Source: a virus. From it: a stretch of 31,047 bases of DNA. The translations under genes and the position numbers were made by a program. Below the pieces are notes generated by a model that was not told the origin of the DNA, did not search any database, and saw only the letters and a list, made by a program, of their open reading frames with translations. Shown here in pieces: positions 8,627 to 29,364 of this stretch (position 1 is its first letter; every line of letters starts with the position of its first letter). The stretch lies in the IMG/VR virus record IMGVR_UViG_3300031862_000026, positions 1 to 31,047 of that record; one strand, 5' to 3'.

Positions 8627-8638
8627 TACGGAGGAAAT

Positions 8639-12779: not shown

Positions 12780-13925
12780 ATGAACAGACTAGAGCTGAGA
12801 ACATACATCAGGGACTTGGGAGACGAGCCGGACGAATATCCGGAAGGGCTGTTCACGAACGTTAAGCTCAATGCCCTCATAAACCTATCTCAGCAGAGGG
12901 TCGCCTTGAAGTTGGCGAGGTTCATTCCCTGGGCCTTTCAAAAGAAATTCAATTTCTCGACGGTCATAAATAAAAAAACATACTCAATCGGAACGGACTT
13001 GGCCGTGACGGACTTCTTCATGATGAACGGGATCTACCGGAACGTGGCCGGCAGGAAGGCTAAGGAACTCGTCTTTTTAGAGAAGGACCAAATCGGATCG
13101 CTTTGGCACGTTGACGAAGGCGGGGAAGCCCTGGCCTGGACGTATGACGATGCCGGGAATATCATGCTCAGCCATCTCCCGGCAGAGAGCGTTGCCGGTA
13201 AGTATGTCGGATACTATATCCCGATCTTCCCCGACCTTAACCATGATACGGTTCATTATCCGCTCGCCGGGGCCGGCACAAACCTTGTGGCGAATGGCGG
13301 ATTCGACGCGACCGTTACGGGATGGGACGGAGCGTACTGTGTGCTGACGAGCATTCGCGGAGGGCAGTCTGGAAATTGCCTTTGTATTACGAATAGCTTG
13401 GCGCCGCCCAATGCTTGGCAATCCGCATATCAAACAATTAGCGGGTTAACCATTGGATTAAACTACCTAATTTCATTTTATGTAAAATCCGGGACGACCG
13501 GCAATGAGATCGGCAAAGTACATTTCTACATGGGATCCGGCAGCGACCCCGAGGTTAATTTTACGACCAACGATGTATGGACAAAATACGAATTAAGCTT
13601 CGTAGCTACTGCCGCATCGGGCGTATTAAGTCTCGTAAAAAATACCTCGACCTGGGGGACGATGCTTTTTGACACGGTTGAATTTGCAAATTCTGGGCTT
13701 TATGCGATCCCCTGGATGGACATTAAAAGTCTCTATCCGGCCCACCCGCTCATAGCCCTCGATGTTTTGAAGAAATGGCACATCGCAGACGAAGAAGAGG
13801 GGTTGGACATCAGGGAAGAGTTCAATGATTTATTATCGGAGATTGTCTCTACGATGACTCAGGCACAGGGAACGACAAGCCGACATCGAAGAAGCATAGA
13901 TCATAATATTATCGGGGGAAGATAG
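12780..13925 (+). CDS. Head-tail adaptor-like protein with inserted carbohydrate-binding-type domain
   Basis: A 381-residue protein with GGAGCAATC before the ATG. Residues 1-160 and 305-381 together resemble the podovirus head-tail adaptor or tail tubular protein. They comprise an N-terminal helical part (NRLELRTYIRDLGDEPDEY, LINLSQQRVALKLARFIPW) and a C-terminal YAIPWMDIKSLYPAHPLIAL followed by a helix with DEEEGLDIREEF. Between them, at about 167-304, lies a separate domain that starts NLVANGGFDATVTGWDG and ends FDTVEF, the hallmarks of a CBM4/9-like jelly roll (N.GFe...GW at the start, a D-vEf strand at the end). The insert is more AT-rich than the flanks. The adaptor would bind the portal, and the insert would project outward. 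The adaptor call rests on order and pattern. Confidence 0.75.
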   Translation: MNRLELRTYIRDLGDEPDEYPEGLFTNVKLNALINLSQQRVALKLARFIPWAFQKKFNFSTVINKKTYSIGTDLAVTDFFMMNGIYRNVAGRKAKELVFLEKDQIGSLWHVDEGGEALAWTYDDAGNIMLSHLPAESVAGKYVGYYIPIFPDLNHDTVHYPLAGAGTNLVANGGFDATVTGWDGAYCVLTSIRGGQSGNCLCITNSLAPPNAWQSAYQTISGLTIGLNYLISFYVKSGTTGNEIGKVHFYMGSGSDPEVNFTTNDVWTKYELSFVATAASGVLSLVKNTSTWGTMLFDTVEFANSGLYAIPWMDIKSLYPAHPLIALDVLKKWHIADEEEGLDIREEFNDLLSEIVSTMTQAQGTTSRHRRSIDHNIIGGR

Positions 13926-13928
13926 AAA

Positions 13929-14135
13929 ATGGCAAGCGAAGTCCCTCCGAAGGCCCGCGGGCCAAGGGGCCAACGCGGACATGATGGCCCCAAGGGAGAT
14001 CCCGGAGATCAGGGGGCTCCGGGATTGGCTGGCGATATTATTTCGGACCCGCCTCCGGGATGCAAGAAAGTGAAAAATCTTTATGTAAATGAATCCGGGA
14101 AATTTGTAGTTGTCTATGACGATACCCCGGTTTAG
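13929..14135 (+). CDS. Short collagen-like protein
   Basis: Sixty-eight residues. Residues 11-34 are eight uninterrupted Gly-X-Y triplets (GPRGQRGHDGPKGDPGDQ, then GAPGLAG), a collagen-like triple helix that should trimerise. A short C-terminal module follows, containing one Cys (KVKNLYVNESGKFVVVYDD). This ending lines up without gaps with the end of the next protein (GK....YDD..V). Collagen-like stretches are frequent in phage fibres and collar proteins. The start is 4 bases after the adaptor stop, with a purine-rich upstream sequence. It is probably a small trimeric fibre or spacer attached to the adaptor or tail hub. Confidence 0.72.
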   Translation: MASEVPPKARGPRGQRGHDGPKGDPGDQGAPGLAGDIISDPPPGCKKVKNLYVNESGKFVVVYDDTPV

Positions 14136-14144
14136 GAGGGTGAC

Positions 14145-14564
14145 ATGGCACTAGCAAGCATGACTTTAGACCCTAACGCCGCGTCCTATACGGACGATCA
14201 GATCGTCGGTAAGGTCAACAGCGCTTCGGCCCAGATCACACGAGCCGGGTCAGTAGCCGCGGCCGCTCGACCGCTTGCCGACGGAGAGGTTGCTGCCGCG
14301 AAGATGGCAGCTGGAGCGATTAAGGCAAAGTTGGCCGGAGAGGAGGACGGCAACAAACTCACGACTTCTGAGTTGGCAGCCGCAGCCGGCATTGCCAACG
14401 CCCAGGTCGCAGCGGGTCTGGCAAAGGCAAATCTTGATGCCCTGACGGATGTGAACCGGGGTTATGTCAAGACTTCCCCGACCTCTGGCCAATTCAAGGT
14501 TATCTCCATCGAAAGACAGGCGGACGGAAAGCTCAAGACGGACTACGACGATCAGGCTGTTTAA
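14145..14564 (+). CDS. Alanine-rich virion-associated protein, probable small fibre
   Basis: A 139-residue protein with a strong GGAGGGTGAC site before the ATG. The middle (residues 25-105) is Ala-rich with repeated A-A-A-K and AAGIANAQVAAGLAKANL segments, suggesting a long helical or coiled-coil shaft. The end, FKVISIERQADGKLKTDYDD, carries the same terminal motif as the preceding collagen-like protein. Two adjacent fibre-like proteins with a common end suggest attachment to the same virion site or a shared trimerisation knob. The stop overlaps the next start by one base (TAATG). No database family is recognised. Confidence 0.65.
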   Translation: MALASMTLDPNAASYTDDQIVGKVNSASAQITRAGSVAAAARPLADGEVAAAKMAAGAIKAKLAGEEDGNKLTTSELAAAAGIANAQVAAGLAKANLDALTDVNRGYVKTSPTSGQFKVISIERQADGKLKTDYDDQAV

Positions 14565-15040
14565 TGGCTAATCAATCTGAGGCCGTTGGACATGCCGCCC
14601 TAGTAGGCGGAGCGGAGACAGCTCTGCACTCTCACGCAGGGGGAGGCTTAGGATATACTCTCCACGTTCAAGCCTTGACCTCAAGCCCAACGGATTCTCA
14701 AACGATCTATTTTGGCGCTCTTCCAAAGGCTCCGACTACGACGGCGAATATCAGCAAGGTATATATCCCCAAGGCGGGGACGATCAAGGTAGCGGAGATT
14801 TATTGCTACTCGGGAACAGCGGGAAGTGCAGAAGGATGGTCGATGTATATTAGAAAGAACAACAGCGTGGATACGCTGATAGCGACGCTTTCCGTTTCTG
14901 CCGGCGAGAGAAGATTCAGCAATACGGGGTTGAGCATCGCCGTTGCCCAAGGAGACTACATCGAGATCAAGTGTATCAATCCTACCTGGGCGACGAATCC
15001 AGCCACGACAATTTTCGGAGGCCGTATCTACATCGAGTAG
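14564..15040 (+). CDS. Probable head or tail fibre protein with jelly-roll end
   Basis: A 158-residue protein. The N-terminus (ANQSEAVGHAALVGGAETAL, then HSHAGGG) resembles the linker seen in phage fibre proteins. From about residue 40 a compact beta domain follows, with strands such as KVYIPKAGTIKVAEIYCYSG, TLIATLSVSAG and a closing FGGRIYIE, resembling small jelly-roll phage knobs. Three cysteines are present. Its ATG overlaps the preceding stop, and the large hub gene starts 9 bases after its end. A receptor-binding or decoration role is inferred from the fold-like pattern and neighbours. Confidence 0.65.
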   Translation: MANQSEAVGHAALVGGAETALHSHAGGGLGYTLHVQALTSSPTDSQTIYFGALPKAPTTTANISKVYIPKAGTIKVAEIYCYSGTAGSAEGWSMYIRKNNSVDTLIATLSVSAGERRFSNTGLSIAVAQGDYIEIKCINPTWATNPATTIFGGRIYIE

Positions 15041-15048
15041 GCAAGAAC

Positions 15049-18000
15049 ATGATTAGACACTCGGCCAAGGGAAAGAAGAAGATCGAGATCGGTGCGTTCG
15101 CCCTTGGGCTGAATGAAATGAAGCCGGTAACCGAGGTAGGCATAGCAGAGGCGATAAGGTTTGAGAACGCTAGGGTTTCCATTGACGGAAGCTTCTTTGA
15201 GAAGCGGAAGGGCGGACTCGAAAAAATTGACGCCCTTTATAACTTCGGTGGAAAGAAAATCCTGGGGTTTGAAAGCCTCGGCGGCGCAACCGAAGTAAGG
15301 CTTGTCGTTTGTACGGAAGACAAGATCTGGCTCAAGACGGCGGGGGCCTGGACGACCATCTTCACGCCGACCCAGGCCGCGACAAAGCCGCTCAGCCTTG
15401 CCAAGTATAGGGATCTTCTCTATATCGCGGGCTATGAGAAGCCCATCGTCGTCATTGGAAACCTGGCTTATTATGCCGGGGTCGGGAAACCGGCGAGCGC
15501 TCCTACCTTAACGGCTCAGGCGGCCACTACCACGGTAAAGGTCGGAGAACACGCCTTCACGAATCAGGACTACGGGCCGAGGCTCAGGGCGACAAATGAT
15601 AACGTGCTGTTTGCTCAATCTTTCATGCCGGCTTCGGCTATTGAGATTTCCGGGGTCAAGCTAAGCCTCAAGAAAATAGGATCCCCGAGCGGGAATGTTT
15701 GGGTTGAGATCCATTCTTCGCAGGTCGGGACGTCGGCCACGAAAAATGCCTCAACAAATATCGTCGGTCAGGGAAGCGACAATATCGCCTGTTCGACGCT
15801 CTCCGGGAGCTATTCGACGCAGACTTTCTCTTTCTCCGGGACGAAGCCAAGCCTTGCCAAAGACACGATTTATTATATCGTCGTCTATGGAGATTTCTCC
15901 GTATCGGCATCGGCCTATGTTCTTGTCGGCGCGGACATGAGCTCATCGAATTTCTCGGTAGGAAAGGGCTGGACAATAAACAGCTCGTTCGCCTGGACGG
16001 CAGAGGAAGACCTGGACGTTGTTTTTGAAATTTTAGGTACAGGGACCGCAACGGGAACCGTAGAGGAATTTGGGCCGCTTGAATCCGGATGGGCGGAAGG
16101 ATTGAGGAAAGATGGGTACAGCGCTTTACTGGCGCAGAGCTTCAAGGTCGATGCCGCAACTGATGTTTCAAGCGTAAAGATTGCATTAAGGAAAGTGATC
16201 GGGGATGAGGCGTTCTTCGGAAATGTTTGGGCGGAGATCCACAGCTCTCAAACCGGGACGGATTTCACGAAGGGCATTTCAGCGAGCATTGTCGGGGGCG
16301 CCTCAGACAGTATATCGGTGGCGAATATTTCAGAAGGATTCGCCTGGGTGGAATTTATTTTCTCAGGAATGAAGCCCGCTCTGGCGGCGGCGACGACTTA
16401 TTATCTTGTCCTTTTTGGAGATTTCAACTGGACGGAAGACCACTATATTGATTGGACTTATCTCATAGGATATGACGACGGGCAAGCCTGGAAGATAAAC
16501 GCTTATTTGGAATGGTCGGGCCAGGCCGTGGATCTTTCATTTAAGATCATCGGGACTTATGTAACAACCACGACTCTTATGCAATATGCGCTGGCGAATC
16601 TTGATGATCCGGGGGAACTTCGGGATGCGGCGGCCCGAACGATTATGGCGCAGAGCTTTAAATTATCAAGAAGCGGAAGTCTCTCAAGTATAAAGCTAAA
16701 ACTGGCAAAGGTGGGAGCGCCGACGGGGAATATTTGGGTAGAGATTCACAAGGCCCAGGGAGGAACTTCGCTAACAAAGAACGCCTCAACAAATATCGTC
16801 GGCCAAGGTTCGGACGATCTTGATGTAAGCACGATCTCAGCCTTCCCGACGTACACGGAATACACTCTCTCTTTTTCCGGGACAAAGCCGTCTCTCGCAG
16901 GTGACTATCAATATTTCCTCGTGGTCTATGCGAGCTATACGATAAGCGCAAGCGCCTTAATTTTTACAGCCATGAGTACAATAGGGTCTAATTATGGGGA
17001 TGGAGAATGTTGGTATATCAATGCGTCCTTGGCCTGGACGAAGCAAGATTATATAGATATTTGCTTTGAGGCTTATTATCTTGGGGCGGCCAGCCCGGGC
17101 GTCTTTAAATATGTCGTGACATTTTTAAGGTCAGGGAATTATCCGTGTGAAGGAAACCCGTCCGAGGAAAGTCTTACGGTTCCGGCTGCCGCCGGGCAAG
17201 AAATATCTATAACAAACATTCCCGTTTCTTCGGAGCCTTCCGTCGACAAGAAAAGACTTTATAGGACGACGGCCGGCGGTGCGATTTTTTATTTCCTTGA
17301 AGAGATCGACAATGCGACTACTTCATACTTAGACCAGCACCTTGATTCGGAGCTGGGGGATGAGGTCGAATATGACAACGATCCCCCGCCGCCTTCGGAT
17401 GAACTTGAGATTTTCGATGGAAGAGTTTGGTATGTCGGCAAAGGCGAATGGGCGGAGTATGTCTATTGCTGCAAGGCCGATTATCCGGAAAACTTTCCAG
17501 ACTATAACTTCTATCCGTTCAAAGACGCGAGCTCAACGAAAGAGGTTTCTCCGGTCAGGAAAATAAAAAACTTTAATAATGAACTTTATGTATTGAAGTC
17601 GAATTGTATCAAGTCCATCTCTCGGTACGGAGAGGATACTTATAGAATAAATGACATCATGGCGGGGACGGGTACGGACGCTCCGGCATCCGTGATCGAC
17701 ACCGGGGAAATGCTTCTCTTTCTTTCGAACCACAAGGGAATCGAGGCGCTTCTCAAGAGCAATACTTTCCTATATCCGAGGCCGTCTGATAAGGTTAAAA
17801 GCACGCTCAGCTCCATTGACTATAAATATATCGGGCTTTCAACAGCCGCCCATTATGCCAAAAATACAGAGTATCTTATAGCGATTCCCGCCGACGGAAG
17901 CGCCGAAAACGGAAAGCTAATTTCCTTCAACTATGTGACCGGGAAGATTGCCGTTGACCAATATGGTGGGAATATGGGTTTTCTAGGAATGATAAATCCT

Positions 18001-18438
18001 GAACTTTCAAAGTCGTTCCTGGCCGTTGGCAGCCAGTATGGCAACCTTTCACTCCTCGATGAAGCCGAGCTTGACGACAACGGAAGGTCAATCATGATGG
18101 ACGTTCAAAGCGGGTGGCTGGCCTTTCCGGAGCATACGGTAATAAGGCGTATCTACATTGAATATATTTTAGGTCCGGAGGCATCGAAGAAAATCTACTT
18201 CAAGATTTATTCGAATTTCAGGCAGTCTCCGGTCCTTGAGGTTTATCTTCCTTCCCTTGCGACTCTCGACGATCTGGATAAAAGGGACGTTCAAAGGAGA
18301 AGGATAGACGCTGCCGCCAGGGGCGAGTTTTTCTCTTTCCGGTTTCTATGCCCCGACAATGTTACGGAAGCGAAGGTTTTCAAAATGACTCTTTATGTAA
18401 GATCAAAGGGATTAAGAAGGTCTATCGAGGCAACCTAA
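15049..18438 (+). CDS. Large tail hub/nozzle-like protein with three tandem jelly-roll domains
   Basis: A 1129-residue protein from ATG 15049. Longer readings upstream lie inside the previous gene. The N-terminal 180 residues (FENARVSIDGSFFEKRKGG, LVVCTEDKIWLKTAGAW) and the C-terminal 380 (GKGEWAEYVYCCKADYPENF, YVLKSNCIKSISRYG, LSNHKGIEALL) look like the beta-propeller hub of podovirus tails (P22 gp10-like or T7 nozzle-like). In between lie three copies of a domain of about 150 residues (near 187-335, 360-509 and 532-684), each with AQSF...S..V.L.L.K......GN.W.EIH, like choice-of-anchor jelly rolls. A fibronectin-like segment (690-785) follows. The uninterrupted hub would be about half this size. 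Hub identity is by order and pattern. The triplication is directly visible. Confidence 0.75.
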   Translation: MIRHSAKGKKKIEIGAFALGLNEMKPVTEVGIAEAIRFENARVSIDGSFFEKRKGGLEKIDALYNFGGKKILGFESLGGATEVRLVVCTEDKIWLKTAGAWTTIFTPTQAATKPLSLAKYRDLLYIAGYEKPIVVIGNLAYYAGVGKPASAPTLTAQAATTTVKVGEHAFTNQDYGPRLRATNDNVLFAQSFMPASAIEISGVKLSLKKIGSPSGNVWVEIHSSQVGTSATKNASTNIVGQGSDNIACSTLSGSYSTQTFSFSGTKPSLAKDTIYYIVVYGDFSVSASAYVLVGADMSSSNFSVGKGWTINSSFAWTAEEDLDVVFEILGTGTATGTVEEFGPLESGWAEGLRKDGYSALLAQSFKVDAATDVSSVKIALRKVIGDEAFFGNVWAEIHSSQTGTDFTKGISASIVGGASDSISVANISEGFAWVEFIFSGMKPALAAATTYYLVLFGDFNWTEDHYIDWTYLIGYDDGQAWKINAYLEWSGQAVDLSFKIIGTYVTTTTLMQYALANLDDPGELRDAAARTIMAQSFKLSRSGSLSSIKLKLAKVGAPTGNIWVEIHKAQGGTSLTKNASTNIVGQGSDDLDVSTISAFPTYTEYTLSFSGTKPSLAGDYQYFLVVYASYTISASALIFTAMSTIGSNYGDGECWYINASLAWTKQDYIDICFEAYYLGAASPGVFKYVVTFLRSGNYPCEGNPSEESLTVPAAAGQEISITNIPVSSEPSVDKKRLYRTTAGGAIFYFLEEIDNATTSYLDQHLDSELGDEVEYDNDPPPPSDELEIFDGRVWYVGKGEWAEYVYCCKADYPENFPDYNFYPFKDASSTKEVSPVRKIKNFNNELYVLKSNCIKSISRYGEDTYRINDIMAGTGTDAPASVIDTGEMLLFLSNHKGIEALLKSNTFLYPRPSDKVKSTLSSIDYKYIGLSTAAHYAKNTEYLIAIPADGSAENGKLISFNYVTGKIAVDQYGGNMGFLGMINPELSKSFLAVGSQYGNLSLLDEAELDDNGRSIMMDVQSGWLAFPEHTVIRRIYIEYILGPEASKKIYFKIYSNFRQSPVLEVYLPSLATLDDLDKRDVQRRRIDAAARGEFFSFRFLCPDNVTEAKVFKMTLYVRSKGLRRSIEAT
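15607..16053 (+). repeat. Jelly-roll domain copy 1 inside the tail hub gene
   Basis: Encodes about residues 187-335 of the hub, starting LFAQSFMPASAIEISGVKLS and ending near FEILGTG. It shares GNVWVEIHSSQ and NASTNIVGQGSD with copy 3. A 20-base identical stretch (15748-15767 and 16783-16802) remains at DNA level. Confidence 0.8.
16126..16575 (+). repeat. Jelly-roll domain copy 2 inside the tail hub gene
   Basis: Encodes about residues 360-509, starting LLAQSFKVDAATDVSSVKIA. It keeps GNVWAEIHSSQTGT and FSGMKPALAAATTYYLVLFG but has diverged more than copies 1 and 3 in the middle strand (SIVGGASDSI against NIVGQGSD). Confidence 0.78.
16642..17094 (+). repeat. Jelly-roll domain copy 3 inside the tail hub gene
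   Basis: Encodes about residues 532-684, starting IMAQSFKLSRSGSLSSIKLK. It is closest to copy 1, sharing KNASTNIVGQGSD and SFSGTKPSLA exactly, which suggests a 1-to-3 duplication or gene conversion after copy 2 diverged. Confidence 0.8.
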
Positions 18439-18439
18439 G

Positions 18440-19144
18440 ATGATACCGATTGATGAAGCCAAGGCGACGGAAATAGCGCGGAGGGAAATAGAGGCCGCGC
18501 TAAAGAAGATCGCCCTGCCTACCATTATCGAAAAGCTCAAGCGGGAACACAACCTTGAAACGGGCCAACATAGCATTCCCTACGAGCGAACTACAAATAA
18601 AGATATTCCGGGCGGCTATCCTTCGCTCGATGAATCTGCCCTGGTTCCAACGGATGATCTTGGGGAAGGGGTCGCAGACGTCACGAAATTTTTGAGAGGC
18701 GATAGAGAATGGATGCCCATTTTTCTAGGAGCAAGGGTATATTTATCCGCCGATCAACTTAATTTTACATCGGGGGCGTGGACGACGATTCAACTCAATA
18801 CTGAAGATTATGATATTGGGGCTAATTTTGATGTTAGCCTCTATAAATTCATCGTTCCAGTGACTGGCTATTATGACATTATGGGGCAAGTTTTTTGGGG
18901 AAGTGTAATAGCCGATAAAAGATATGGCGCCGGTGTATTTAAGGGGGTTACTCATATTGCTGGTGGGTTAACTCACGCCTCTCATGCCGATAATATTACC
19001 GTATCGTGTCGAGATATTATTTATTTAACTGCCGGAGATGAACTTTACTTGAAGGGCTATAACGACTCCGGAGTTAATACTTGTGGCGTAATTTCCGGGC
19101 CATATTGCTCGACTTTTCTTACGGTGCGTTTAATTAATATTTAA
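18440..19144 (+). CDS. Tail fibre protein with C1q/TNF-like receptor-binding head
   Basis: A 234-residue protein starting one base after the hub stop. Residues 1-40 form a charged helix that could attach to the tail. Residues 57-92 (GGYPSLDESALVPTDDLGEG, then ADVTKFLRGDREW) are the linker typical of phage fibres ahead of a C-terminal knob. Residues 97-234 match a C1q/TNF-type jelly roll: GARVYL, then W..IQLN, FDVSLYKFIVPVTGYYDI, LTAGDELYLKGYN and the terminal FLTVRLI. Such trimeric knobs bind host surface receptors or sugars. The DNA encoding the knob (from about 18720) is clearly more AT-rich than the part encoding the stalk, as expected for a swapped receptor-binding module. Confidence 0.8.
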   Translation: MIPIDEAKATEIARREIEAALKKIALPTIIEKLKREHNLETGQHSIPYERTTNKDIPGGYPSLDESALVPTDDLGEGVADVTKFLRGDREWMPIFLGARVYLSADQLNFTSGAWTTIQLNTEDYDIGANFDVSLYKFIVPVTGYYDIMGQVFWGSVIADKRYGAGVFKGVTHIAGGLTHASHADNITVSCRDIIYLTAGDELYLKGYNDSGVNTCGVISGPYCSTFLTVRLINI

Positions 19145-19155
19145 GGAAGTTAAAT

Positions 19156-20352
19156 ATGTGCATTTTTAAGAAGAAGAAAGAAAAGGTCAGGGTGAAGGTT
19201 TGTAATAGCTGGCCGGATCTTCCGCCCGAGGTCGCCCGGATCGCCACGGCCAAATGCCCGGCGACTCACGAAGCGGAGTACTATAAGGTGAGCCGGCCGA
19301 CCTCGATCTGCGATCTTTCGCACGAAGCACCGAAGCCCCATATCGTTGACAATCCGAAGCCGGGATGGATGCCGAGAATGGTAGTGGCCGCGCTGAGGCT
19401 TCACTATGATTCTCCGGGCCTGACAGATGAACAACTCAAATCCTTCGCTGAGAAGATCAGTCTTGCCGGGGTTGATTACATCCGAATCATGGGAGACTGG
19501 GAATCCTATTTCACGCCGGGTTCGGGTGTCTCCGCATTCATGAGGACGGCGAGCGACAGATTCGATCTGGACCAAGAAAATCCCGAATGGGACAAGGCGC
19601 TCAAAAGACTCAGGGATATTTTCGATCCCTACTTCATAAAGATTTATTTCGACCTTATAGATAACTGTGATTCAGACAAGGGGCCTTGGGCCTGGAACGT
19701 GAATGGATTCTTGAGCATTTACGAACAGGGACTTGTCACGCGCTACATCAAATTCTTTGACCGCGTTTTCGCCGTTCTCGGTGCGGAAGCGAAATATGGA
19801 CTCGGCAATGAGTTTCAGGGTGACAATGTTGACTGGATCCAAAACTGTATGCTGCCTCTCGCGGAGCATATCCACGGCAAGGCACAGAAGCCGATCTGTT
19901 TTTCCGGCGACGACATGACCGCCCACCATCTTCACGGCGCACTATCGCCCGACGTCTCCGGAATATTCGGGATCCGGGATTCCTGTCTTGTCCGTCATTG
20001 GTGCGGAACTCCAGCAAAGATTTTGGAATTTCTTGACCAGGGCTCTTCTGTTCGTTGCTATGCCTATTCCGATGATGGCCTCACAATGGAAAGCGTAGCA
20101 TCAGAACACGGCCCATGCACTCCCGCCAATGTTTTCTGTCAAGGGACTATTCAGCAGAGAATCGATGTCGTCCGGGCAGCTTGGGATTCGCTCAGGAATA
20201 TCGACAACCGGATGGACCACATCGAGTTTCTTCCGAGGGAGATCTCCTGGGAGGGCGATCCCAATAACATCTCGGAGGAAAGCTTGAAAATATATGATGA
20301 TCTCGCGCAAGCGCTTTGGGGTCTTTCGATAAAGCGTGAGATGGAGGTGTGA
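19156..20352 (+). CDS. Clan GH-A-like glycoside hydrolase, possible depolymerase
   Basis: A 398-residue protein with AAGGAAG before the ATG. From about residue 73 it reads as a (beta/alpha)8 glycosidase of the cellulase type: strand VDYIRIMGDWESYF, then IKIYFDLIDNCD, then YGLGNEFQG with the Asn-Glu pair (N218-E219) typical of the acid/base in clan GH-A, and SEHGP with E317 as candidate nucleophile. Cysteine is unusually frequent. No signal peptide is present, so it is probably a virion protein cutting a host polysaccharide. It lies between the tail fibre and the ejection-type proteins. The first 60 residues (KKKKEKVRVKV, then CNSWPDLPPEV) are unlike glycosidases and may attach it to the tail. 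Substrate and exact family are unknown. Confidence 0.75.
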   Translation: MCIFKKKKEKVRVKVCNSWPDLPPEVARIATAKCPATHEAEYYKVSRPTSICDLSHEAPKPHIVDNPKPGWMPRMVVAALRLHYDSPGLTDEQLKSFAEKISLAGVDYIRIMGDWESYFTPGSGVSAFMRTASDRFDLDQENPEWDKALKRLRDIFDPYFIKIYFDLIDNCDSDKGPWAWNVNGFLSIYEQGLVTRYIKFFDRVFAVLGAEAKYGLGNEFQGDNVDWIQNCMLPLAEHIHGKAQKPICFSGDDMTAHHLHGALSPDVSGIFGIRDSCLVRHWCGTPAKILEFLDQGSSVRCYAYSDDGLTMESVASEHGPCTPANVFCQGTIQQRIDVVRAAWDSLRNIDNRMDHIEFLPREISWEGDPNNISEESLKIYDDLAQALWGLSIKREMEV

Positions 20353-20353
20353 T

Positions 20354-20860
20354 ATGCCACTAGGACTGACAAATCCAGGACTCGGAAGGAATACATCTTC
20401 CTGGGCGGCGGGGCAAGCCGGGCCTTTGGGCTTAAGTAGGGATGATTCTCCTTGGGGTTCTTTAGCCGCTGGAGGCTTGGGAGCTCTACTCGGAGGTGCC
20501 GGCGGGTCACCGTTAATGGGGATTTTTGCCGTTTATTCCTTGCTGAAAAGCCTTGGTATCTTCGGGGATGGCGACGATGAAGAACAGCAACGCCAAGATC
20601 AAGAGGCACTTCTAAGGGAACTCAAGCCGAGGCAGCCGCTTTATCAAAGCCCGTTCCTTGCTACGGCAGACAAGAGCGTACTCGAAACGCTACTGGCCCG
20701 ACTCGGCCAGACACAGAACTGGGGATGGCCGCAGGGCAATAATATCAACCTTCCCTTTCTCCAGTCGATACTGGCCGGGGGAATCGGAAGCGCCGGCGGA
20801 TCGCCGATCAGAAGGCTAGGCCAGAGCCAAGCCCCAACGCTTCGAGACGTCATAAGGTGA
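20354..20860 (+). CDS. Gly-rich hydrophobic protein, probable ejection protein
   Basis: A 168-residue protein. The ATG at 20354 is preferred over an upstream GTG because GGAGGTG lies 5 bases before it. Residues 35-75 hold a Gly-rich hydrophobic segment (GSLAAGGLGALLGGAGG, then PLMGIFAVYSLLKSLGIFG) able to insert in a membrane. An acidic Gln-rich stretch and a Leu-rich segment (LETLLARLGQTQNWGW) follow. Small hydrophobic proteins at this place in podovirus genomes are often injected with the DNA to form the trans-envelope channel. This is an inference, since no family pattern is certain. Confidence 0.6.
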   Translation: MPLGLTNPGLGRNTSSWAAGQAGPLGLSRDDSPWGSLAAGGLGALLGGAGGSPLMGIFAVYSLLKSLGIFGDGDDEEQQRQDQEALLRELKPRQPLYQSPFLATADKSVLETLLARLGQTQNWGWPQGNNINLPFLQSILAGGIGSAGGSPIRRLGQSQAPTLRDVIR

Positions 20861-20868
20861 GGTGAACC

Positions 20869-22062
20869 ATGTCAAATTCCGCCTCAAATATTTATTGCTG
20901 TAAACAATGTGTGAACGGAGTTGTAAAAAAGGGGATGTCCGTCAATCCCTGCAAATATCCGTGGCTTCCGTGCAGTAGTTTAACTAATCCATGCGGAGGA
21001 ACCGAGGAGTGGGGCGGGGGTACAGATGCGGGAGGCGGGAAAAATTGCGAGAACGAGTGCATTGATTTAGACAAGGGATCGCAAGAATATAAGGATTGCC
21101 TTGAGGAGTGTAGGCAGAGAGGGGCCGGGTGTCAAACAGATAGCGATTGTGGGTCGGGCGAAGTTTGCAAAAGCGGGTCTTGTGTAAAGTCGGGGACCTG
21201 TAATGAGGACGCAGACTGCGGGACGGGGAAACATTGTGTCGATGGAAAGTGCGTTGACGATACGGGGGCGGATTGCGGGAAAGGCAAGGTCACAAGCGAC
21301 GCATACCCGAAAGGCCGGGACTGGACTGGATGCCCTTGCAGCGCCGCATATTATCCGACGAACCCGGGAGAGTGCCAAGCCGGATACAGCCCGGTGGGAA
21401 CCGGGACGGATGCCCGTTGCGAGTGCGATAAGTACGATGCAGAGGTCGGGACGGAAGAGACGAAACAGGGTGGGACATTCGAGTTTTCTCCTGATGTCAA
21501 GGCTCTCATGGCCCGGCTTTTGCAGAGGGCAAACTGGTTGCTCGATAACCCCGGTGGAATGACAGCCGAGGAAAGGGCGATGATCTCAAACCGCGCCACG
21601 GAGCAAATAAAAGGAGCGGAGCGCGGAACCCTTCAATCTTCAAGGGATACGCTTGCAAGGCTCGGGCTATTGGGCTCGGGACAGCAGATAAGTGAGGAAG
21701 GGAGAATAAGAAGGGCAACGGGTCAGGCCGTAGCCGCATCGCAGAGAGACATCGCCATAGAGGAAGCGGCCCGAAGGGTTCAGGATCTTCTTGGAACAAC
21801 GGGAATGGCAAGCCAGCTGACAACCGGGGGGATGACCGCCGATCAACTCGTTGAGGCATTGAACGCGGCCCGGCGCGGCGAGAGCAAGGACTGGACGCAG
21901 ATGCTGCTCACTTATCTCTCGAACATGATGAACGCACAGAACGCCGCCTGGAGCCCTTATTACCAAGCGCTCGCTCAGAGATACAATACGCCGAACCAGA
22001 CTGGGACGTCTTCTTCCTCTTGGCTGCCTTACCTTTTGGCGATGCTCGGGTCGAAATACTAG
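20869..22062 (+). CDS. Ejection-type protein with cysteine-rich N-terminal repeats
   Basis: A 397-residue chimera with GGTGAGGTGAACC before the ATG. The first 186 residues hold 24 cysteines, and the remaining 211 hold none. Two tandem repeats have identical spacing C-x5-C-x5-C-x4-C (C88, 94, 100, 105 and C111, 117, 123, 128), with the signature DSDCGSGEVCKSGSC and DADCGTGKHCVDGKC. This is the disulfide-rich pattern of secreted proteins, seen in myxobacteria and in EGF/Dickkopf-like eukaryotic modules. The C-terminal part (EERAMISNRATEQIKGAERG, IAIEEAARRVQDLLG) is helical and resembles ejection proteins such as P22 gp7/gp20. It is followed by two more ejection-type genes. How the disulfides would form is unclear. 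Confidence 0.72.
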   Translation: MSNSASNIYCCKQCVNGVVKKGMSVNPCKYPWLPCSSLTNPCGGTEEWGGGTDAGGGKNCENECIDLDKGSQEYKDCLEECRQRGAGCQTDSDCGSGEVCKSGSCVKSGTCNEDADCGTGKHCVDGKCVDDTGADCGKGKVTSDAYPKGRDWTGCPCSAAYYPTNPGECQAGYSPVGTGTDARCECDKYDAEVGTEETKQGGTFEFSPDVKALMARLLQRANWLLDNPGGMTAEERAMISNRATEQIKGAERGTLQSSRDTLARLGLLGSGQQISEEGRIRRATGQAVAASQRDIAIEEAARRVQDLLGTTGMASQLTTGGMTADQLVEALNAARRGESKDWTQMLLTYLSNMMNAQNAAWSPYYQALAQRYNTPNQTGTSSSSWLPYLLAMLGSKY

Positions 22063-22071
22063 GAGGCGGAC

Positions 22072-23061
22072 ATGGCAGGACTGACTGAATTACTTCAAAC
22101 AAGGCCGAAACAAAACATGAACGACTTCCTGGCGTTCTACCTGCCGGAACTGCTCAAGCAGCAGATGCAACTCGAGCAGGTGAAAAAACAATCGGAGATC
22201 TGGCTCCAGAATCAACTCAAGGAGTATCAGGCATACGGGGATATTCAATCGAAGCAGGGGAAGGAAGCGTTTATCAGGGAAACTTTGGGGAAGTTGATCA
22301 ATCCCGAATACTTCAAAGAGCGGCCGATGCCCGAACTCCAGACGGCCAAAACGATAAGGGATTATTTTCCCGCAAATGTAGTTTCGGAACTCGGAATAAA
22401 TATTCCTCCGGCAGCGGAGACATCTTTGGCGGATTCTATTCTTGCCGGGAGAGGAGCTTTGAACGCTCGGCAGACGCTTGATAATATCCCGGCCGACCAA
22501 CTCGCCACCCTCGTAAGGACAATCGGCTACAAGCCCGTCCTCGAAACTGTTCAGGAGATCCAGAAAGAGAAACAGGCGAGAGACGAGATGGCATTGAGAG
22601 GAAGGGAATTGACGGAGACGGAGAAAGGCAACGTACTTCGCGGCCGGGAAATCGGGGTCAGGGAAGCAGAGGCTGGCATGGCGGGAACGGCGGGAAAGCA
22701 AACAACCAAAGACCTCAAGGCCGAACTCAAGGAGAAGGAAGCAGAGCGTCAAGAAATGGCGAATATGTATTATGGTTTTAAGGGAAGTTTAGACTTTCAA
22801 TATACCGACGAAAAAAACAAAACGGTTGTTCTTGACGAAAAGAAAAAGGGTATTTTTGTAGCTGACCTTATAAGAATTAGTAGGGAAGTCAAGGAACTTA
22901 AAAGTAAATTGGGCATAAAACCCGACGCTGATCTCGTTGAGCGAGTGAAAAGAATTAAGGCACAAAAATATAACATTAAAAGTCTTTTCGATGATGAGGA
23001 ACTTATCAAGGCTCTCACGGATCGGGGTATAAATCCGCTTTATCTAATAGAATACTGGTAA
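22072..23061 (+). CDS. Helical virion protein, probable ejection protein
   Basis: A 329-residue protein with AGGAGGCGG 3-4 bases before the ATG. It is mainly helical and charged, with long coiled-coil-like stretches (LLKQQMQLEQVKKQSEIWLQ, then EIQKEKQARDEMALRGRELT) and no cysteine or membrane segment. It lies between the cysteine-rich protein and the 1951-residue protein, the position of internal virion proteins in podoviruses. The last 100 codons (from about 22757) are much more AT-rich than the first 230, and the shift continues into the next gene. This points to a recombination junction. No family is recognised. Confidence 0.62.
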   Translation: MAGLTELLQTRPKQNMNDFLAFYLPELLKQQMQLEQVKKQSEIWLQNQLKEYQAYGDIQSKQGKEAFIRETLGKLINPEYFKERPMPELQTAKTIRDYFPANVVSELGINIPPAAETSLADSILAGRGALNARQTLDNIPADQLATLVRTIGYKPVLETVQEIQKEKQARDEMALRGRELTETEKGNVLRGREIGVREAEAGMAGTAGKQTTKDLKAELKEKEAERQEMANMYYGFKGSLDFQYTDEKNKTVVLDEKKKGIFVADLIRISREVKELKSKLGIKPDADLVERVKRIKAQKYNIKSLFDDEELIKALTDRGINPLYLIEYW

Positions 23062-23063
23062 AA

Positions 23064-26000
23064 ATGAATTTATTCGATCAGGAAAAAGATCAATTTGATT
23101 GGCTGGATGGTCCTTCAAAAAAGAAGCCATTAGCCAACGTTGAACCATTAGGCGCAAATATCCAACAGGTCATTCTCCCAAAACCAGAATTTCCGACCGA
23201 TGATCAATTTTCATGGTTGGATGGTCTTCCTGCGGGGAAAAAGCCCGAAACTATGCAAGTAAAGGCCGTGCCGAAACCTCCGGGGGTAGCAGAAAGGGCT
23301 ATGAATTTAGCCAAGAAGCTTGGTCTGCAGGCTCTCGTAACGCAGGGAATTTCCTCAGCCAAGCCGCCGGATTTACGAGTTGATGGAACTCCAAAGGGAG
23401 CAGGATTTTTCGGCCCATTGAAAAGACCGGACGGAATGGTTTCAACGGAATTGTCGGCTGGTATAAGTGGCCCGGAATTTGGGGGAAAGGAAACGCTTGT
23501 CCCGCTTCTTGTCCCGACATTAAGTAGAAGTGAGATTGATTATCTTCTCGCTGGAAATAAACCTACCGATGAAATAGTCGCAAAGGCGAAGGAATATGCG
23601 TTGTCCAGAATTCAATCGGGCAAAAGTCCATTTGCCGGGCCGGGAGAACAAAGGGAGCCTCCTGAATATCAACCTTCAATGAGGGCCATGAATCCGGTAG
23701 AGAAGACGGCGGCGGAGCTTGAAGCATTGAGGAATGTGACGGCGATCCCCCCGGAGAAACTCGTAGAGCCGACTCTACCGGGGGAAATCATTCCGGCCGC
23801 AGTTAAGACTCTCGGCGGAGGTTTTTTAAGTGCGGCGTCGAAGACAGCCGGAGTGTTGAATACCTACGCTCAAAAACTCGGCAAGTTGATAGGCGTCCAG
23901 CCGGGCGGAATCTTCAAGCAACTTTCCGACAACTGGGATTATTACGCAAAGGAACTGCAGGGGCGGGGATTTAAAGCCGAAGGAGAAAGGGTTAGTCCAA
24001 CGGAAAAGACGTTTACTGGATTCCTTGGGGGCGTCGGAGCCGCGGGATTCGATATTCCAATGATCTATGCTTTGGGACCCGAAGGGCTAGCGATTCATGG
24101 CGCGATTATGGGTGGTGCTGAAAAGGGGCTTGAAGGTGCGCTTATTGGTGCGGCACAGGGAAGGTTGATGAAGGGTTTTTTAGCTGCGACTTCTAGGATC
24201 CCGGCAGTAGTGCAACCGTTAGCCGGTGGAGTAGCTTTCGGACTCACGGTTCCCGGTGGTCTGAAGGAGAAGGCGGAAGCTTTTACGATCGGATCAGTCC
24301 TCACGCTCACCGGGGGAAGGCAAGCACCGACTTGGGGGGAATTTTTCGACGCCTATAAAGCTCATGCTCCGCAGATGACCGAGCATGATGCCGATATGGT
24401 CTATCGTGATTTGACGGGTCAGGAGAAGCCGAAGATAACGATGTCGGCAAAGGCGCTGGTCGATGAGACGATCAACGAATTGAACAAGGGACTCGCCCCG
24501 GGGCAACCGATGGCGGATCTCGTCGGAACCGTAGGAAAGCCGGAGACATGGCGACAACCCCCGCCTCCTGAAGTAGCACCTCGAAGGATCACGGCGCCGG
24601 CAACCTATGAAGTAGCCCCTGGTGGAACAGTAATTCCGAAGACGATCCCGGAAGCGCAGAGAATTCAGGTCGCGGCGAGAGCGGCCGAGATCCCGCCGGA
24701 AGAAAGACCGCTGACCACGATTCAGATTAGGACTCTCCCGGACGGGACGATTGAGATAACCCCGATAAAGCGAACGGCAGAAGAGGTCATAAAGCCGACA
24801 GAAGAAATTCCTCCGAGAATAGAACCGGCGAAATACGCACCGCCTATTAGAATGGCTCCCTTGCCGACCGTAACCCCAAAGGCTGAGATTGTCGCCCCAA
24901 AAAAAATACCGTCATTAAAACAACCGAAACTTTCCGAAACACCTTTTATCTCCTGGATCCGGAAGCAGGGCGGGATTGACTACAACTCCTATCTAGGCAC
25001 AGGCCTTGGTGCTGGTGAGGTTCAGAATATTATGCAGTCCAGCGCCAAGAGTGTTTTTAAGAAGAAGGGCGGCGGGATGAAGATAACTCTTCTTGCGGAG
25101 AAAGCGCGAGATGAAGGATATATCAAAGCCGCTGGTCCAGAGGATGTTTTAGCCGCGATAGACCAAGAGGTCGCTGGAAAACCTCAGCCGCCAGCGGCAA
25201 CGAGTTACGAGTATTTCCAGCAAGCCAGGGCGAAGCAGGAAGAAGCCGCCATAGCCGCAGAAGCCGAACGCTACAATGCGGAGCAAGCGGAGAAGGCCGC
25301 GCCCGTAAAGGAAGAGAAGGTTCTTTACCGGGGGAATATTCCAACGATGAACCCGGATACCGCTAAGAAAGAAAATGTAGGTGTTTTTGTATCGAGACAA
25401 CCAATTGGCGGAAAAATTATTGAGGCTACGGCAATAAATTTGTCCTCAATAAACCCCGAGATTATTCCTGGTAGATTTGAGAAAATTCAAGAATCATGGA
25501 AAAACCTAAAGGATGAAATAGGCTATGTCAGTTATGACAAAATTTCCAAAGATACGAATCTTCCCGTCCAAGAAATCGGGGCTGAGCTAAAAGCTCAAAA
25601 ACAAAACAATCCTTATCTTATTAATTTTTCCTCTGATCGTATGGGGGCTAACGTAGGAATTAAGATTAAGTCAGAAAGGGAACAAGTTGAAAGTCGCCCA
25701 CCCGAAAAGCCGATAGAAACGAAGCAGGATCTTAAGGATTCATTCGGCCCGGAGCGAACGCCCGAGGATAGGGCCAGGGAAGAGAGGATCCTCACGGAGA
25801 TTGATGAGGCAATCAAGAAGGGGAAGGAACTCACGCCGGAGCAGAAAGATTTGCTGGAGAAGCAGGGAATTTATAAAGAAGTCCCAGCCGCAACTACAAT
25901 CCCGCGGGGGGAAGAAGAAATAGCAGTATCCGAAGAAGGTCTTTACGAGGGGACGATTCCAGAGGGGCAAATGAAGCTTGTTAGGGTTTCAATAAAAACC

Positions 26001-28919
26001 CCTACCGGAGAATATGAGAACTTGGGTGAAATTTCCCCCGATAAAATAGATGAAATTAGGCAATATGCTAAGAAATTTGGTGTCGAGGATAATTTAAAAA
26101 TTGGACAAGAATTTATTGGAAGATGGAAGGAGTCTATATCACCCGAACAAATTGAAAAGTTTATGAAGGATATTATTCGTGATGTTAAAAATATCCCGAA
26201 AGAAACTTGGGAGCTTTATGCCGGTTATCCTTTTACAAAAGAAATCAAGCGAGCGGTTCTGGCGATTAAGGATAGGTCAGAGAAGAGAAGGTTTGTTGCC
26301 AATGAAGAGTTGAGGAATGAACTTCAAAAGACGGATGCCGGGAAAGTCGAATGGATGTACCATGAGACGGATCGCGCAATAAAAGAAAAAACGAAACCTA
26401 CTTTTAAGAAGGCCTTTGCTTGGTCAAAGAGGGCCTTTGTTGATACGAGCGGGAATATAAAAAAAGCCTTAATTAAAGACCTTGGGCCACTTGGCAAAGA
26501 GGCGGTTGTCCAACACGACCTATTAGCCGGGGCAAGTGCGAAGGCTCAGAGAATGTATGAGGAGGCGGAGAAGGGCATCTATAAAGGAATTTCAAAAGAA
26601 GAAGAAATGCTTTTGAATCGGGCAATCCAATCCAGGCGAACCATAGCCATATCGAAATACAGGCCGGACGTTAAACATCCGATGGGCTTAACCGAAAAGG
26701 AACATGGGCAATATCTTAAAGGGATCCCGCCGGAAATTCAGAAAAGGGCCGATGTCTATTTTAAGGAGATGGAAAAGGTTCTCGATAGGCTCAAGGGGGA
26801 GGGCCTTTTAAGCAAGCAAGATTATGAAAACCTAAAAGAAAAAGGCGACTATTCTCCCCGCCGCTTCATTCAATACATTGACCCGGAAGTAAAATATAAC
26901 ATTTCGGGAAGGACGATAACCGTTGGAGATAGCGGACTAAAGCGGTTGGACGAGGGAAGCATTCAGGTCATGGAAACGAACTCAAGGCTTTTTCTTTCAA
27001 ATGTCCTTGGTAGGACCGAGAGCAGAATATTTAGAAACAAGGCGAATGTAGCGCTTTATAATTTAGCGAAAGAGATTCCCGACAATGGAATAGTTAGCTT
27101 GGCTAAGGTCGGCCACTTAACAAAAGAAGGGGAGCCGGTATATGAATCGGCCAAGGGCGGCTTTACGAAAATCAAGGTCATGGTTGAAGGCAAGCCCAAG
27201 GAAATGACCATGCCCTACGAATATGCGAGGGAGTGGATTCTCAGGGACCCGCTTGTCGATCATACCCAGGCAAACATCATAGGTTGGGTCTCGGGAAGTA
27301 AGATTCTCAAACCCTTAGCCACGGGAATAAACCCCGGATTCGCATTGACGAATATGCCCAGGGACATTCTTCATGTTTGGTTCACAACTCAGGAATATTC
27401 AAAATCACTCGTTAAGTATCCCTTCCAAATTGCGAAGGATTATTTCGAGACGGCCAAGGATGCGTTTTCAAGAAAGGGGGCGTTTAAAGATTATGTCGAT
27501 GAAGGCGGCCTCATGAACTTCCTTACCTTGCAAGGAAGGACCTTCCCAAATGCCAGTGCGAAATTAAGGAATCTTCAGGAAGTCTTGGGATATATCGGAG
27601 AAACCTCCGAGATCTGGACAAGACTCGCCCTTAGAAACAGGGCTTTAAAGAATGGGGCCACGCCCGACGAGGCGACTTGGACCGCGAGAAATTACATTGA
27701 CTTCAGCCAGGGCGGGAACGTCACCAAGGCATTTGATACGGGGATCCCCTATCTTAACGCATCGGTCCAGGCAACGAGGGGCATCTTCAGGGCTTTCGGG
27801 GAGCATCCAAGCGAAACCATTTGGAAGTTTGCCCAGCTCGGAACTTTGGCCGCGGGACTTTATGTTGCAAACAGCCGAGTAAATAAAGATTGCTACGACT
27901 CAATTTCCACGAGAGACAAGGAGGCCAATTTTATCATCACAACCCCGTTTAGTTTCAAGGATAAAAATGGAAATATCCGATATCTATATTTCAAGATAGC
28001 CAAAGACCAGACGACCAGGATGCTTTGCTCTGTCTTTGAAGGGTTGATGGCGAAAGTCCTGGGGGACAAAGTAGATCCGGACCAGATCGCTCAGGCTGTT
28101 CAGGATTCTTTCCCTATAATTCCAGACCAGAACCTTCCGCCTTCCTTGTCCGCATTTTTGGGATACACGTCAAACAAAGACTTCTGGAGAAACGAAGATG
28201 TTTGGAAAGGCCCCAAGGTTACACCACGGGAGGAATACACGGTTTACACCGACCCGACTTTGATTAAGGCCGGCGAGATAACTCACCTCTCCCCGGAAAG
28301 ACTCGGCTATGCGATAAAAGAAATGTTTACGCGGGGGAATATTTATACGTCGCTTGTCTCCGGCGGCTTGAATCTTTTAATGCAGGATCTTACCGAGGCC
28401 GACAAAAGGAGGGTCTCGGCTGAGATTATAACGAGCATCCCGGATGTTAAGAGGGTCTTTAATGTGACTCCGCCTTATTCCATGAAAGAAATTAAGGAGG
28501 CGGAGAAGGCCCAAGTAGAGCAGTCAACAATAAAATATAAGCAAACAAGAGAACTGGACAGGATGGCTTCTGGCTATTATAGGAAATTAAAAGACGAAGG
28601 GCAGGAGGACACGGAGCTTTTCACGGAGATCAAGAAATTTATTGGTGAACAACCGGCGCCGGATCGCAAGGCCTTAATAACAAGATTTAAGAACTATGGC
28701 ATTGTCTATAAAATTCCCGAAAAACGATGGTGGCTTGAACTGGACGGCATGAACCCGGAAGCAAGGGCGACTGTATTTTGGACGAAGTACCTTGAATCAA
28801 ATGAGGAGAAAAGGCACGAACTCATGAGGCTTGCACACATTGTCCCGGGAATTTGGACGGACCGATTCGTTAATCGATTTAATTCCTTAATGAGCAAGTC
28901 GGGGAAAAAGAATGAGTAA
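23064..28919 (+). CDS. Giant polyvalent-type protein, 1951 residues, probable ejected protein
   Basis: It begins 2 bases after the previous stop, without a clear ribosome binding site. An N-terminal DQF(D/S)WLDG motif occurs twice (9-16 and 47-54). Residues about 103-190 (GFFGPLKRPDGMVSTE, LVPLLVPTLSRSEIDYLL) form a segment seen in many phage giant proteins. A Gly/Ala-rich hydrophobic stretch (about 310-430) may span a membrane. Residues about 627-705 (FISWIRKQGGIDYNSYL, MKITLLAEKARDEGYI) are another recurring phage module. The C-terminal third (about 1140-1620), with NPGFALTNMPRDILHVWF and ARNYIDFSQGG, matches the LPD38-type domain of large polyvalent proteins. Such proteins are packaged and injected to act early in infection. 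The domain names are from memory of the families. No catalytic motif is certain. Confidence 0.75.
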   Translation: MNLFDQEKDQFDWLDGPSKKKPLANVEPLGANIQQVILPKPEFPTDDQFSWLDGLPAGKKPETMQVKAVPKPPGVAERAMNLAKKLGLQALVTQGISSAKPPDLRVDGTPKGAGFFGPLKRPDGMVSTELSAGISGPEFGGKETLVPLLVPTLSRSEIDYLLAGNKPTDEIVAKAKEYALSRIQSGKSPFAGPGEQREPPEYQPSMRAMNPVEKTAAELEALRNVTAIPPEKLVEPTLPGEIIPAAVKTLGGGFLSAASKTAGVLNTYAQKLGKLIGVQPGGIFKQLSDNWDYYAKELQGRGFKAEGERVSPTEKTFTGFLGGVGAAGFDIPMIYALGPEGLAIHGAIMGGAEKGLEGALIGAAQGRLMKGFLAATSRIPAVVQPLAGGVAFGLTVPGGLKEKAEAFTIGSVLTLTGGRQAPTWGEFFDAYKAHAPQMTEHDADMVYRDLTGQEKPKITMSAKALVDETINELNKGLAPGQPMADLVGTVGKPETWRQPPPPEVAPRRITAPATYEVAPGGTVIPKTIPEAQRIQVAARAAEIPPEERPLTTIQIRTLPDGTIEITPIKRTAEEVIKPTEEIPPRIEPAKYAPPIRMAPLPTVTPKAEIVAPKKIPSLKQPKLSETPFISWIRKQGGIDYNSYLGTGLGAGEVQNIMQSSAKSVFKKKGGGMKITLLAEKARDEGYIKAAGPEDVLAAIDQEVAGKPQPPAATSYEYFQQARAKQEEAAIAAEAERYNAEQAEKAAPVKEEKVLYRGNIPTMNPDTAKKENVGVFVSRQPIGGKIIEATAINLSSINPEIIPGRFEKIQESWKNLKDEIGYVSYDKISKDTNLPVQEIGAELKAQKQNNPYLINFSSDRMGANVGIKIKSEREQVESRPPEKPIETKQDLKDSFGPERTPEDRAREERILTEIDEAIKKGKELTPEQKDLLEKQGIYKEVPAATTIPRGEEEIAVSEEGLYEGTIPEGQMKLVRVSIKTPTGEYENLGEISPDKIDEIRQYAKKFGVEDNLKIGQEFIGRWKESISPEQIEKFMKDIIRDVKNIPKETWELYAGYPFTKEIKRAVLAIKDRSEKRRFVANEELRNELQKTDAGKVEWMYHETDRAIKEKTKPTFKKAFAWSKRAFVDTSGNIKKALIKDLGPLGKEAVVQHDLLAGASAKAQRMYEEAEKGIYKGISKEEEMLLNRAIQSRRTIAISKYRPDVKHPMGLTEKEHGQYLKGIPPEIQKRADVYFKEMEKVLDRLKGEGLLSKQDYENLKEKGDYSPRRFIQYIDPEVKYNISGRTITVGDSGLKRLDEGSIQVMETNSRLFLSNVLGRTESRIFRNKANVALYNLAKEIPDNGIVSLAKVGHLTKEGEPVYESAKGGFTKIKVMVEGKPKEMTMPYEYAREWILRDPLVDHTQANIIGWVSGSKILKPLATGINPGFALTNMPRDILHVWFTTQEYSKSLVKYPFQIAKDYFETAKDAFSRKGAFKDYVDEGGLMNFLTLQGRTFPNASAKLRNLQEVLGYIGETSEIWTRLALRNRALKNGATPDEATWTARNYIDFSQGGNVTKAFDTGIPYLNASVQATRGIFRAFGEHPSETIWKFAQLGTLAAGLYVANSRVNKDCYDSISTRDKEANFIITTPFSFKDKNGNIRYLYFKIAKDQTTRMLCSVFEGLMAKVLGDKVDPDQIAQAVQDSFPIIPDQNLPPSLSAFLGYTSNKDFWRNEDVWKGPKVTPREEYTVYTDPTLIKAGEITHLSPERLGYAIKEMFTRGNIYTSLVSGGLNLLMQDLTEADKRRVSAEIITSIPDVKRVFNVTPPYSMKEIKEAEKAQVEQSTIKYKQTRELDRMASGYYRKLKDEGQEDTELFTEIKKFIGEQPAPDRKALITRFKNYGIVYKIPEKRWWLELDGMNPEARATVFWTKYLESNEEKRHELMRLAHIVPGIWTDRFVNRFNSLMSKSGKKNE

Positions 28920-29364
28920 GCAGTTTCCGGGGATCCACATTTCCCGAGAAGAATATTGCTGCAAATGCTGCGGCCAACTGCCGCCCGACTTCTACAATGA
29001 AGAGAACGAGCCGAGCATTGAATATATCCTTCTCTTCAACTGTTTCGAGGAGATCCGGCAGATTTACGGGAAGCCGATCCCGATCTCAAGCGGCTTCCGC
29101 TGTGTCAGCCATGAACTCGAACTGTTCGCTCGGCATGAGATTCAATCGCCCGTATCGGTCCACATCTTCGGCCTTGCTCTGGACATCGTGCCGCCGAAGG
29201 AAGACATCGAGAAGGTCGTCAAGATCGCCCGGATAGTGACGCCGACGCCCAGGATCGGCTGGCATGATTATCTTCCGCATCCCACTCCACATATACATCT
29301 CGACGTTGGCTGGATGATTATACCGAGGTGGAGTAAAGACTTAGTGAAAGGAGTAGAGTGGTGA
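28912..29364 (+). CDS. M15-family zinc peptidase, probable endolysin
   Basis: A 150-residue protein overlapping the end of the giant gene by 8 bases. It has the M15 D-Ala-D-Ala carboxypeptidase pattern. SVHIFGLALDI supplies the zinc ligands H84 and D91 (the S.H..G.A.D motif). GKPIPISSGFRC is the strand ahead of it, and HPTPHIHLDVGW gives the last His (129) and neighbouring residues. An N-terminal CCKCC (16-20) is unusual and may be a second metal site. The length suits a single-domain lysin with no cell wall-binding module and no signal peptide, so it would need a holin. It would cut peptide cross-links of the host cell wall at the end of infection. Small overlapping genes follow. Confidence 0.85.
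   Translation: MSKQFPGIHISREEYCCKCCGQLPPDFYNEENEPSIEYILLFNCFEEIRQIYGKPIPISSGFRCVSHELELFARHEIQSPVSVHIFGLALDIVPPKEDIEKVVKIARIVTPTPRIGWHDYLPHPTPHIHLDVGWMIIPRWSKDLVKGVEW

Follow-up and report, generated by a model that had tools for sequence, protein, structure and literature searches.

The window analysed here, 31,047 nucleotides covering positions 1 to 31,047 of the virus record IMGVR_UViG_3300031862_000026, carries a podovirus-type structural operon. Among its genes is an open reading frame whose product joins an N-terminal half dense in cysteines to a C-terminal half devoid of them (Table 1). This raises the question of what such a protein might do in a phage and where its cysteines would come into play.

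Architecture and genomic setting of the fusion protein

The open reading frame translates into 397 residues. All 24 cysteines lie within residues 10-186 (positions 10, 11, 14, 28, 35, 42, 60, 64, 77, 81, 88, 94, 100, 105, 111, 117, 123, 128, 136, 155, 157, 169, 184 and 186) and none in the last 211, a distribution already reported by a first-pass annotation of this DNA and confirmed by translation. Under random placement, the probability that all 24 fall within the first 186 of the 397 residues is ~5e-9. The two tandem units with the spacing C-x5-C-x5-C-x4-C described in the same annotation also held up. They begin at residues 88 and 111, and both fit the fuller pattern C-x4-D-C-x2-G-x2-C-x2-G-x-C. 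Shuffling residues 1-196 at fixed composition gave the bare spacing twice in 144 of 200,000 shuffles, one copy of the fuller pattern in 15 and two copies in none.

Overall, the Cys-rich half consists of four distinct blocks, two of which are common to the sole homologue found, a 314-aa protein encoded at positions 7719-8663 of IMGVR_UViG_3300031873_000009 (hereafter L002). This independent phage has the same Cys-rich and helical layout within one open reading frame, which rules out a frameshift artefact joining two genes; the fusion is real.

Table 1 Positions of the structural genes, the cassette genes and the parts of the 397-aa protein in the window.
Feature	Position	Strand	Remarks
TerL	3423-4997		
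Portal	5260-7278		
Probable scaffold	7556-8626		
Major capsid protein (MCP)	8639-9880		SU10_MCP, 24.4 bits
Tail genes	12780-18438		
174-aa small cassette gene	20336..20860	+	upstream of the 397-aa gene
Plausible SD-like ribosome-binding site AAGGTGAGG	20854-20862		upstream of the ATG of the 397-aa ORF
Cys-rich/helical fusion protein, 397 aa, ejection cassette (by position)	20869..22062	+	ORF; relative L002:7719-8663
N-terminal leader, residues 1-57	20869..21039	+	6 Cys (10, 11, 14, 28, 35, 42)
Twin CX3C segment, residues 58-83	21040..21117	+	C60-x3-C64 ... C77-x3-C81
Repeat unit 1, residues 88-105	21130..21183	+	TIGR04201/DUF7107-like; absent from L002
Repeat unit 2, residues 111-128	21199..21252	+	same pattern as unit 1; absent from L002
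6-Cys module, residues 134-196	21268..21456	+	70% identity to L002 across 63 aa; conserved sequence CGKGKVTS..YP.GRDW.GCPCSAAY.P.....CQAGY...G.G.D.RCECDKYDAEVG
Cys-free helical C-terminal region, residues 197-397	21457..22062	+	27% identity to L002
GLLGSG motif, residues 266-271	21664..21681	+	sequence comparison
329-aa helical-looking cassette gene	22072..23061	+	no Cys; synteny
1951-aa large cassette gene	23064..28919	+	positional counterpart of gp16-type ejection protein
M15 peptidase endolysin	28912..29364	+	after the cassette; PF08291 38.5 bits, cutoff 23.2

Judging from its position only, the 397-aa protein is an ejection-cassette protein, in line with the ejection-type setting given by the first-pass annotation. 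The gene order 174/397/329/1951 matches the small, middle and large ejection gene layout of T7 (PMC8954989). The order of a small gene, a 397-aa-type gene, a gene of ~330-430 aa, a gene of 1.7-2.6 kaa and an endolysin recurs in the L002 phage with one extra 227-aa gene. The same order is found in four phages whose capsid and portal proteins are distantly related to those of the present phage: Jasmine and Casserole of Arthrobacter, Shocker of Microbacterium and DS1 of Cellulosimicrobium. Among the flanking genes, the 174-aa protein, whose most hydrophobic 19-aa window scores 1.54, weakly resembles a 158-aa gene product in the same place of the L002 phage (33% over 82 aa, E 0.001), and the 1951-aa product shows a local 36% match to that of a 2553-aa gene of the L002 phage, the large gene having the same place in Jasmine-type phages. 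From the cassette position we infer that the 397-aa protein resides in the virion.

The likeness to the cassettes of T7/P22-type (T7 gp14-gp15-gp16) and Jasmine-type podoviruses thus comprises the order of small, middle and very large genes, the helical character of the proteins and, in some, a GLLxSG-like motif; GLLGSG resembles R-G-L/M-x-x-S in the same-position genes of other podoviruses. However, sequence similarity to these proteins is not significant, the local hhalign match to a Jasmine-type gene centred on GLLGSG having a P of 0.11. Moreover, T7 gp14-type proteins have membrane helices, whereas the 397-aa protein has none predicted (maximum 19-residue hydropathy 0.37). The Jasmine-type proteins checked are also Cys-free, and the cassette proteins checked of six phages (Jasmine, Casserole, Shocker, DS1 and two Manatee Spring podoviruses) contained no cysteine, so that Cys-richness is no general property of such cassettes. 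As the same-position proteins of the cultured phages are Cys-free, the Cys-rich part is an added layer. Pairing of the C-terminal part with a Cys-rich N-terminal part, which the first-pass annotation had singled out for comparison among related phages, held for L002, with its hairpin and 6-Cys module.

Structure prediction, likewise proposed earlier for the Cys-rich part, gave two poor AlphaFold models (pLDDT 47.5 and 55.2) from which no fold could be named. At low confidence, the twin CX3C segment was modelled as a helical hairpin (helices 60-63 and 72-85, pLDDT about 55-73) and residues 197-397 appeared as helices in the AF2 model. Foldseek searches with these models returned no match at E<=0.001. 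The match to an internal virion protein had an E of 0.15, and EGF-like and ScpA/ScpB matches at E 4-10 were judged meaningless. In sequence searches, the protein matched the tape measure family phrog_1068 at E 0.04; the only PDB sequence match, to a P2X receptor (E 0.04), was composition-like.

Unequal conservation of the cysteine blocks

Comparison with L002 showed that the four blocks have fared differently. The leader of the L002 protein has no cysteine where the 397-aa protein has six, and both repeat units, with their eight cysteines, are missing. In contrast, the twin CX3C hairpin keeps 4/4 cysteines (C48, C52, C67 and C71 in L002) and the 6-Cys module 6/6, these being the only N-terminal blocks that the L002 protein retains. 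The two proteins thus differ by whole, self-contained blocks with even numbers of cysteines, a pattern to be expected if the blocks are disulfide units.

Sequence identity between the two phages is likewise uneven, amounting to 70% in the 6-Cys module and only 27% in the C-terminal region and in TerL and 32% in the MCP. Only 5 of 20 four-fold sites in the module are identical, which is about chance level and indicates saturation. A recent swap of the module between the phages is thereby ruled out, and its sequence must have been held by selection. Judged from this one pair of sequences, one homologue being known, the module is old and under strong purifying selection. TerL as bait yielded no viral relatives; an MCP alignment search recovered the known relative and three short contigs of 5-8 kb, in which a profile search found no cassette gene.

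Conservation is as strong in the residues around the module cysteines (GRDW, SAAY, QAGY and DKYDAEVG) as in the cysteines themselves, which suggests a putative binding surface. Beyond L002, no homologue of the module was found when viral and genome contigs were scanned by protein, by alignment and by DNA pattern, or by tblastn of phages, and the exact-peptide and spacing patterns applied matched no bacterial genome. Relaxed spacing patterns hit chance frames only, many with stops. None of the family libraries and sequence collections used recognised the module. By these searches and this comparison it is new, strongly conserved and separate from the repeat units. By eye, it can be likened to thyroglobulin type-1 domains (CxC with C..GY), although the cysteine order differs.

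Relatives of the repeat units on other viral proteins

The first-pass annotation had likened the cysteine repeats to myxobacterial and eukaryotic Cys-rich families, and profile searches support this likeness as a near-miss. TIGR04201 (Myxo_Cys_RPT) scores 21.7 bits with the whole protein and 22.9 bits with its N-terminal part (curated cutoff 25), and DUF7107 (PF23416) matches residues 88-129 over nearly the full profile length at 22.9 bits (gathering cutoff 24.6). As both cutoffs are missed, we do not class the protein as a member of either family. Still, tandem units of 20-22 aa with conserved cysteines, a trait of TIGR04201, are present, and the protein may work like these families, judging from the pattern and the tandem arrangement. 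It shares with the TIGR04201 repeats of myxobacterial TraA and with DUF7107, Dickkopf_N and EB modules the unit pattern, the tandem repetition and an expected place outside the cytoplasm. Unlike in the TIGR04201/DUF7107 systems, the units here lie just under the cutoffs, number only two, stand in a phage protein with no evident signal peptide and are attached to an unrelated 6-Cys module.

Although tblastn of the N-terminal half against phages gave weak matches only (E 0.5 and up), inspection revealed true tandem repeats of the unit in two archaeal viruses, in cyanophage PSS2, where the carrier is the 2612-aa gp084 encoded next to tail genes, and in Synechococcus phage S-SCSM2R, where it is the baseplate hub; this hub itself scores 24.1 on TIGR04201 (cutoff 25). 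A scan of viral contigs for the strict unit matched at least 120 contigs. In at least 116 IMG/VR contigs the unit lies in an open frame, at least 108 of these frames being at least 100 aa long, although a few are probably open by chance. Carriers were clustered and assigned by the PHROG matches of representatives: among the matches listed, at least 24 group with the baseplate wedge protein phrog_219, at least 20 with the baseplate hub phrog_1922, a loose cluster because long repeats link some members, and at least six with phrog_773, labelled 'major head protein'. Two contigs (L087 and L123) carry the unit as a clean insertion in their wedge protein; it is absent from the cyanophages S-SZBM1, P-RSM6 and S-WAM1, close cultured relatives of the carriers at 54-60% identity.

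Occurrence in several virion families, together with presence and absence in the wedge protein, marks the unit as a module that phage virion proteins have repeatedly gained and lost. The earlier view that such modules are unexpected in a phage virion protein was thus wrong; as regards ejection proteins specifically, we found no other with the domain. Similar accretion is known for Ig-like domains, a small, self-contained fold grafted on many phage virion proteins, gained and lost; here the module is a disulfide-type Cys unit and not an Ig fold. The insertions in marine T4-like phages (hub phrog_1922, wedge gp6 phrog_219 and phrog_773; for example in Synechococcus phage S-SCSM2R and IMG/VR contigs L087, L103 and L106) resemble the present case in that a virion protein carries the unit in some relatives and lacks it in others. 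They differ in that they concern structural proteins of long-tailed phages, and not a podoviral ejection cassette with a conserved new module. A stalk repeat of myxobacterial cell-surface recognition thus appears to recur on phage virion proteins, and we found no description of the unit in phages in the open-access literature searched.

Several further Cys-rich viral proteins came to light. Two phrog_773 members of 818-1120 aa (L103:10555-13917 and L085:256-2712) carry an N-terminal Cys unit; given this size, the label 'major head protein' may denote something other than the actual capsid protein. The archaeal virus ANMV-1 encodes a protein of 1166 aa (L081:1696-5196) that consists almost entirely of Cys repeats and whose end is only weakly Phage_Mu_F-like (17.1 bits, cutoff 29.6). 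Viral proteins of ~290-536 aa with 31-65 cysteines (L084:989-2170, L104:1982-3592, L117:554-2071, L136:6907-8505 and L194) each have one N-terminal CGSGxxCxGGxC-like unit; those of L084, L117 and L136 form one family.

Candidate role at the host envelope and competing readings

The reading that we consider on balance moderately probable is that of a virion protein of the ejection cassette, internal or at the tail tip, whose disulfide modules would act in or outside the host envelope. The Cys-free helical half would be the part belonging to the phage machinery, and the N-terminal modules would work in an oxidising space outside the host cytoplasm. T7 ejection proteins exit via the narrow portal and refold (PMC8954989), from which we infer that the Cys half is in the reduced state during transit and acquires its fold after leaving the virion. 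The protein would thus be made and packed reduced, pass through the tail in a partly or wholly unfolded state, and fold and oxidise outside or in the periplasm, locking the channel assembly in place.

In TraA, the repeats are predicted to be disulfide-bonded (PMC3325183) and have been proposed to form a rigid stalk (PMC3325183, PMC6372800), several of them being deletable singly without loss of function (PMC6372800). By analogy, the two units of the 397-aa protein may serve as a disulfide-stapled spacer or stalk, which phages would gain and lose like Ig-like domains. The 6-Cys module is probably the constrained working part, which would dock to a partner that is itself conserved and sits either at the tail tip or in the envelope of the host. 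Whether it is in addition a redox-switched domain, packed reduced and unfolded and oxidising and folding only after exit, so that disulfides formed in the host envelope irreversibly latch the DNA channel, is a speculation to which we give little credence; should the module oxidise after ejection, the redox chemistry of the host envelope would become a testable part of phage entry.

Phage assembly takes place in the reducing cytoplasm. This circumstance, together with the CxC pairs 155/157 and 184/186 and the CX2C at 11/14, would suit a Cys-rich half that binds zinc or an Fe-S cluster and, as a cap folded in the cytoplasm, structures the protein inside the virion. We favour this less and regard it as unlikely: the CX2C knuckle is the only one, the single histidine (122) is not conserved, lying in a repeat that L002 lacks, and no zinc-family match was found in Pfam or NCBIfam. 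The CX3C pairs and the TIGR04201-like units are, moreover, disulfide-type patterns. The likeness to known families, the even cysteine numbers per block, the CX3C spacing and the scarcity of CX2C and histidine make disulfides the likelier state, ahead of bound metal.

The other carriers of the unit being largely baseplate or tail proteins, the 397-aa protein could instead be an external tail-tip or adhesin subunit that is not ejected and binds the host surface with its Cys modules, a reading that seems doubtful to us. In this reading the protein would work with the glycan-enzyme-like neighbour encoded at 19156-20352, a protein that is also unusually conserved between the two phages (57% versus 27% for TerL). 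The cassette position beside a gp16-sized gene, the helical C-terminus and the gene order kept with L002 speak against an external subunit, and in the L002 phage the glycan-enzyme-like gene sits elsewhere. A recently captured host Cys-rich domain that has yet to settle into a role would fit the lack of both repeat units in L002; we think it highly improbable, as the 6-Cys module and the hairpin are common to two phages with capsids 32% identical and saturated synonymous sites, and the bacterial genome search described above gave no match.

Other genes of the window also drew attention. The 398-aa protein at 19156-20352 (+), with a counterpart at L010:6700-7962, has GNEFQ and EFLPRE motifs and is suggestive of a glycan-acting TIM-barrel enzyme; Pfam, NCBIfam and the phage collection gave no match, and WD-40 chain matches in a PDB profile search cover only 54 positions and are probably an artefact. 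The tail-adaptor-like product of 12780-13925 (+) contains a stretch resembling the carbohydrate-binding module CBM_4_9 (22.7 bits, cutoff 25.9), and that of 18440-19144 (+), which matches phrog_15750, has a C1q-like C-terminal domain (20.4 bits, cutoff 23.7). On the opposite strand, 145-1032 (-) encodes an ArdC N-terminal domain and an IrrE-like metallopeptidase, a gene of anti-restriction type.
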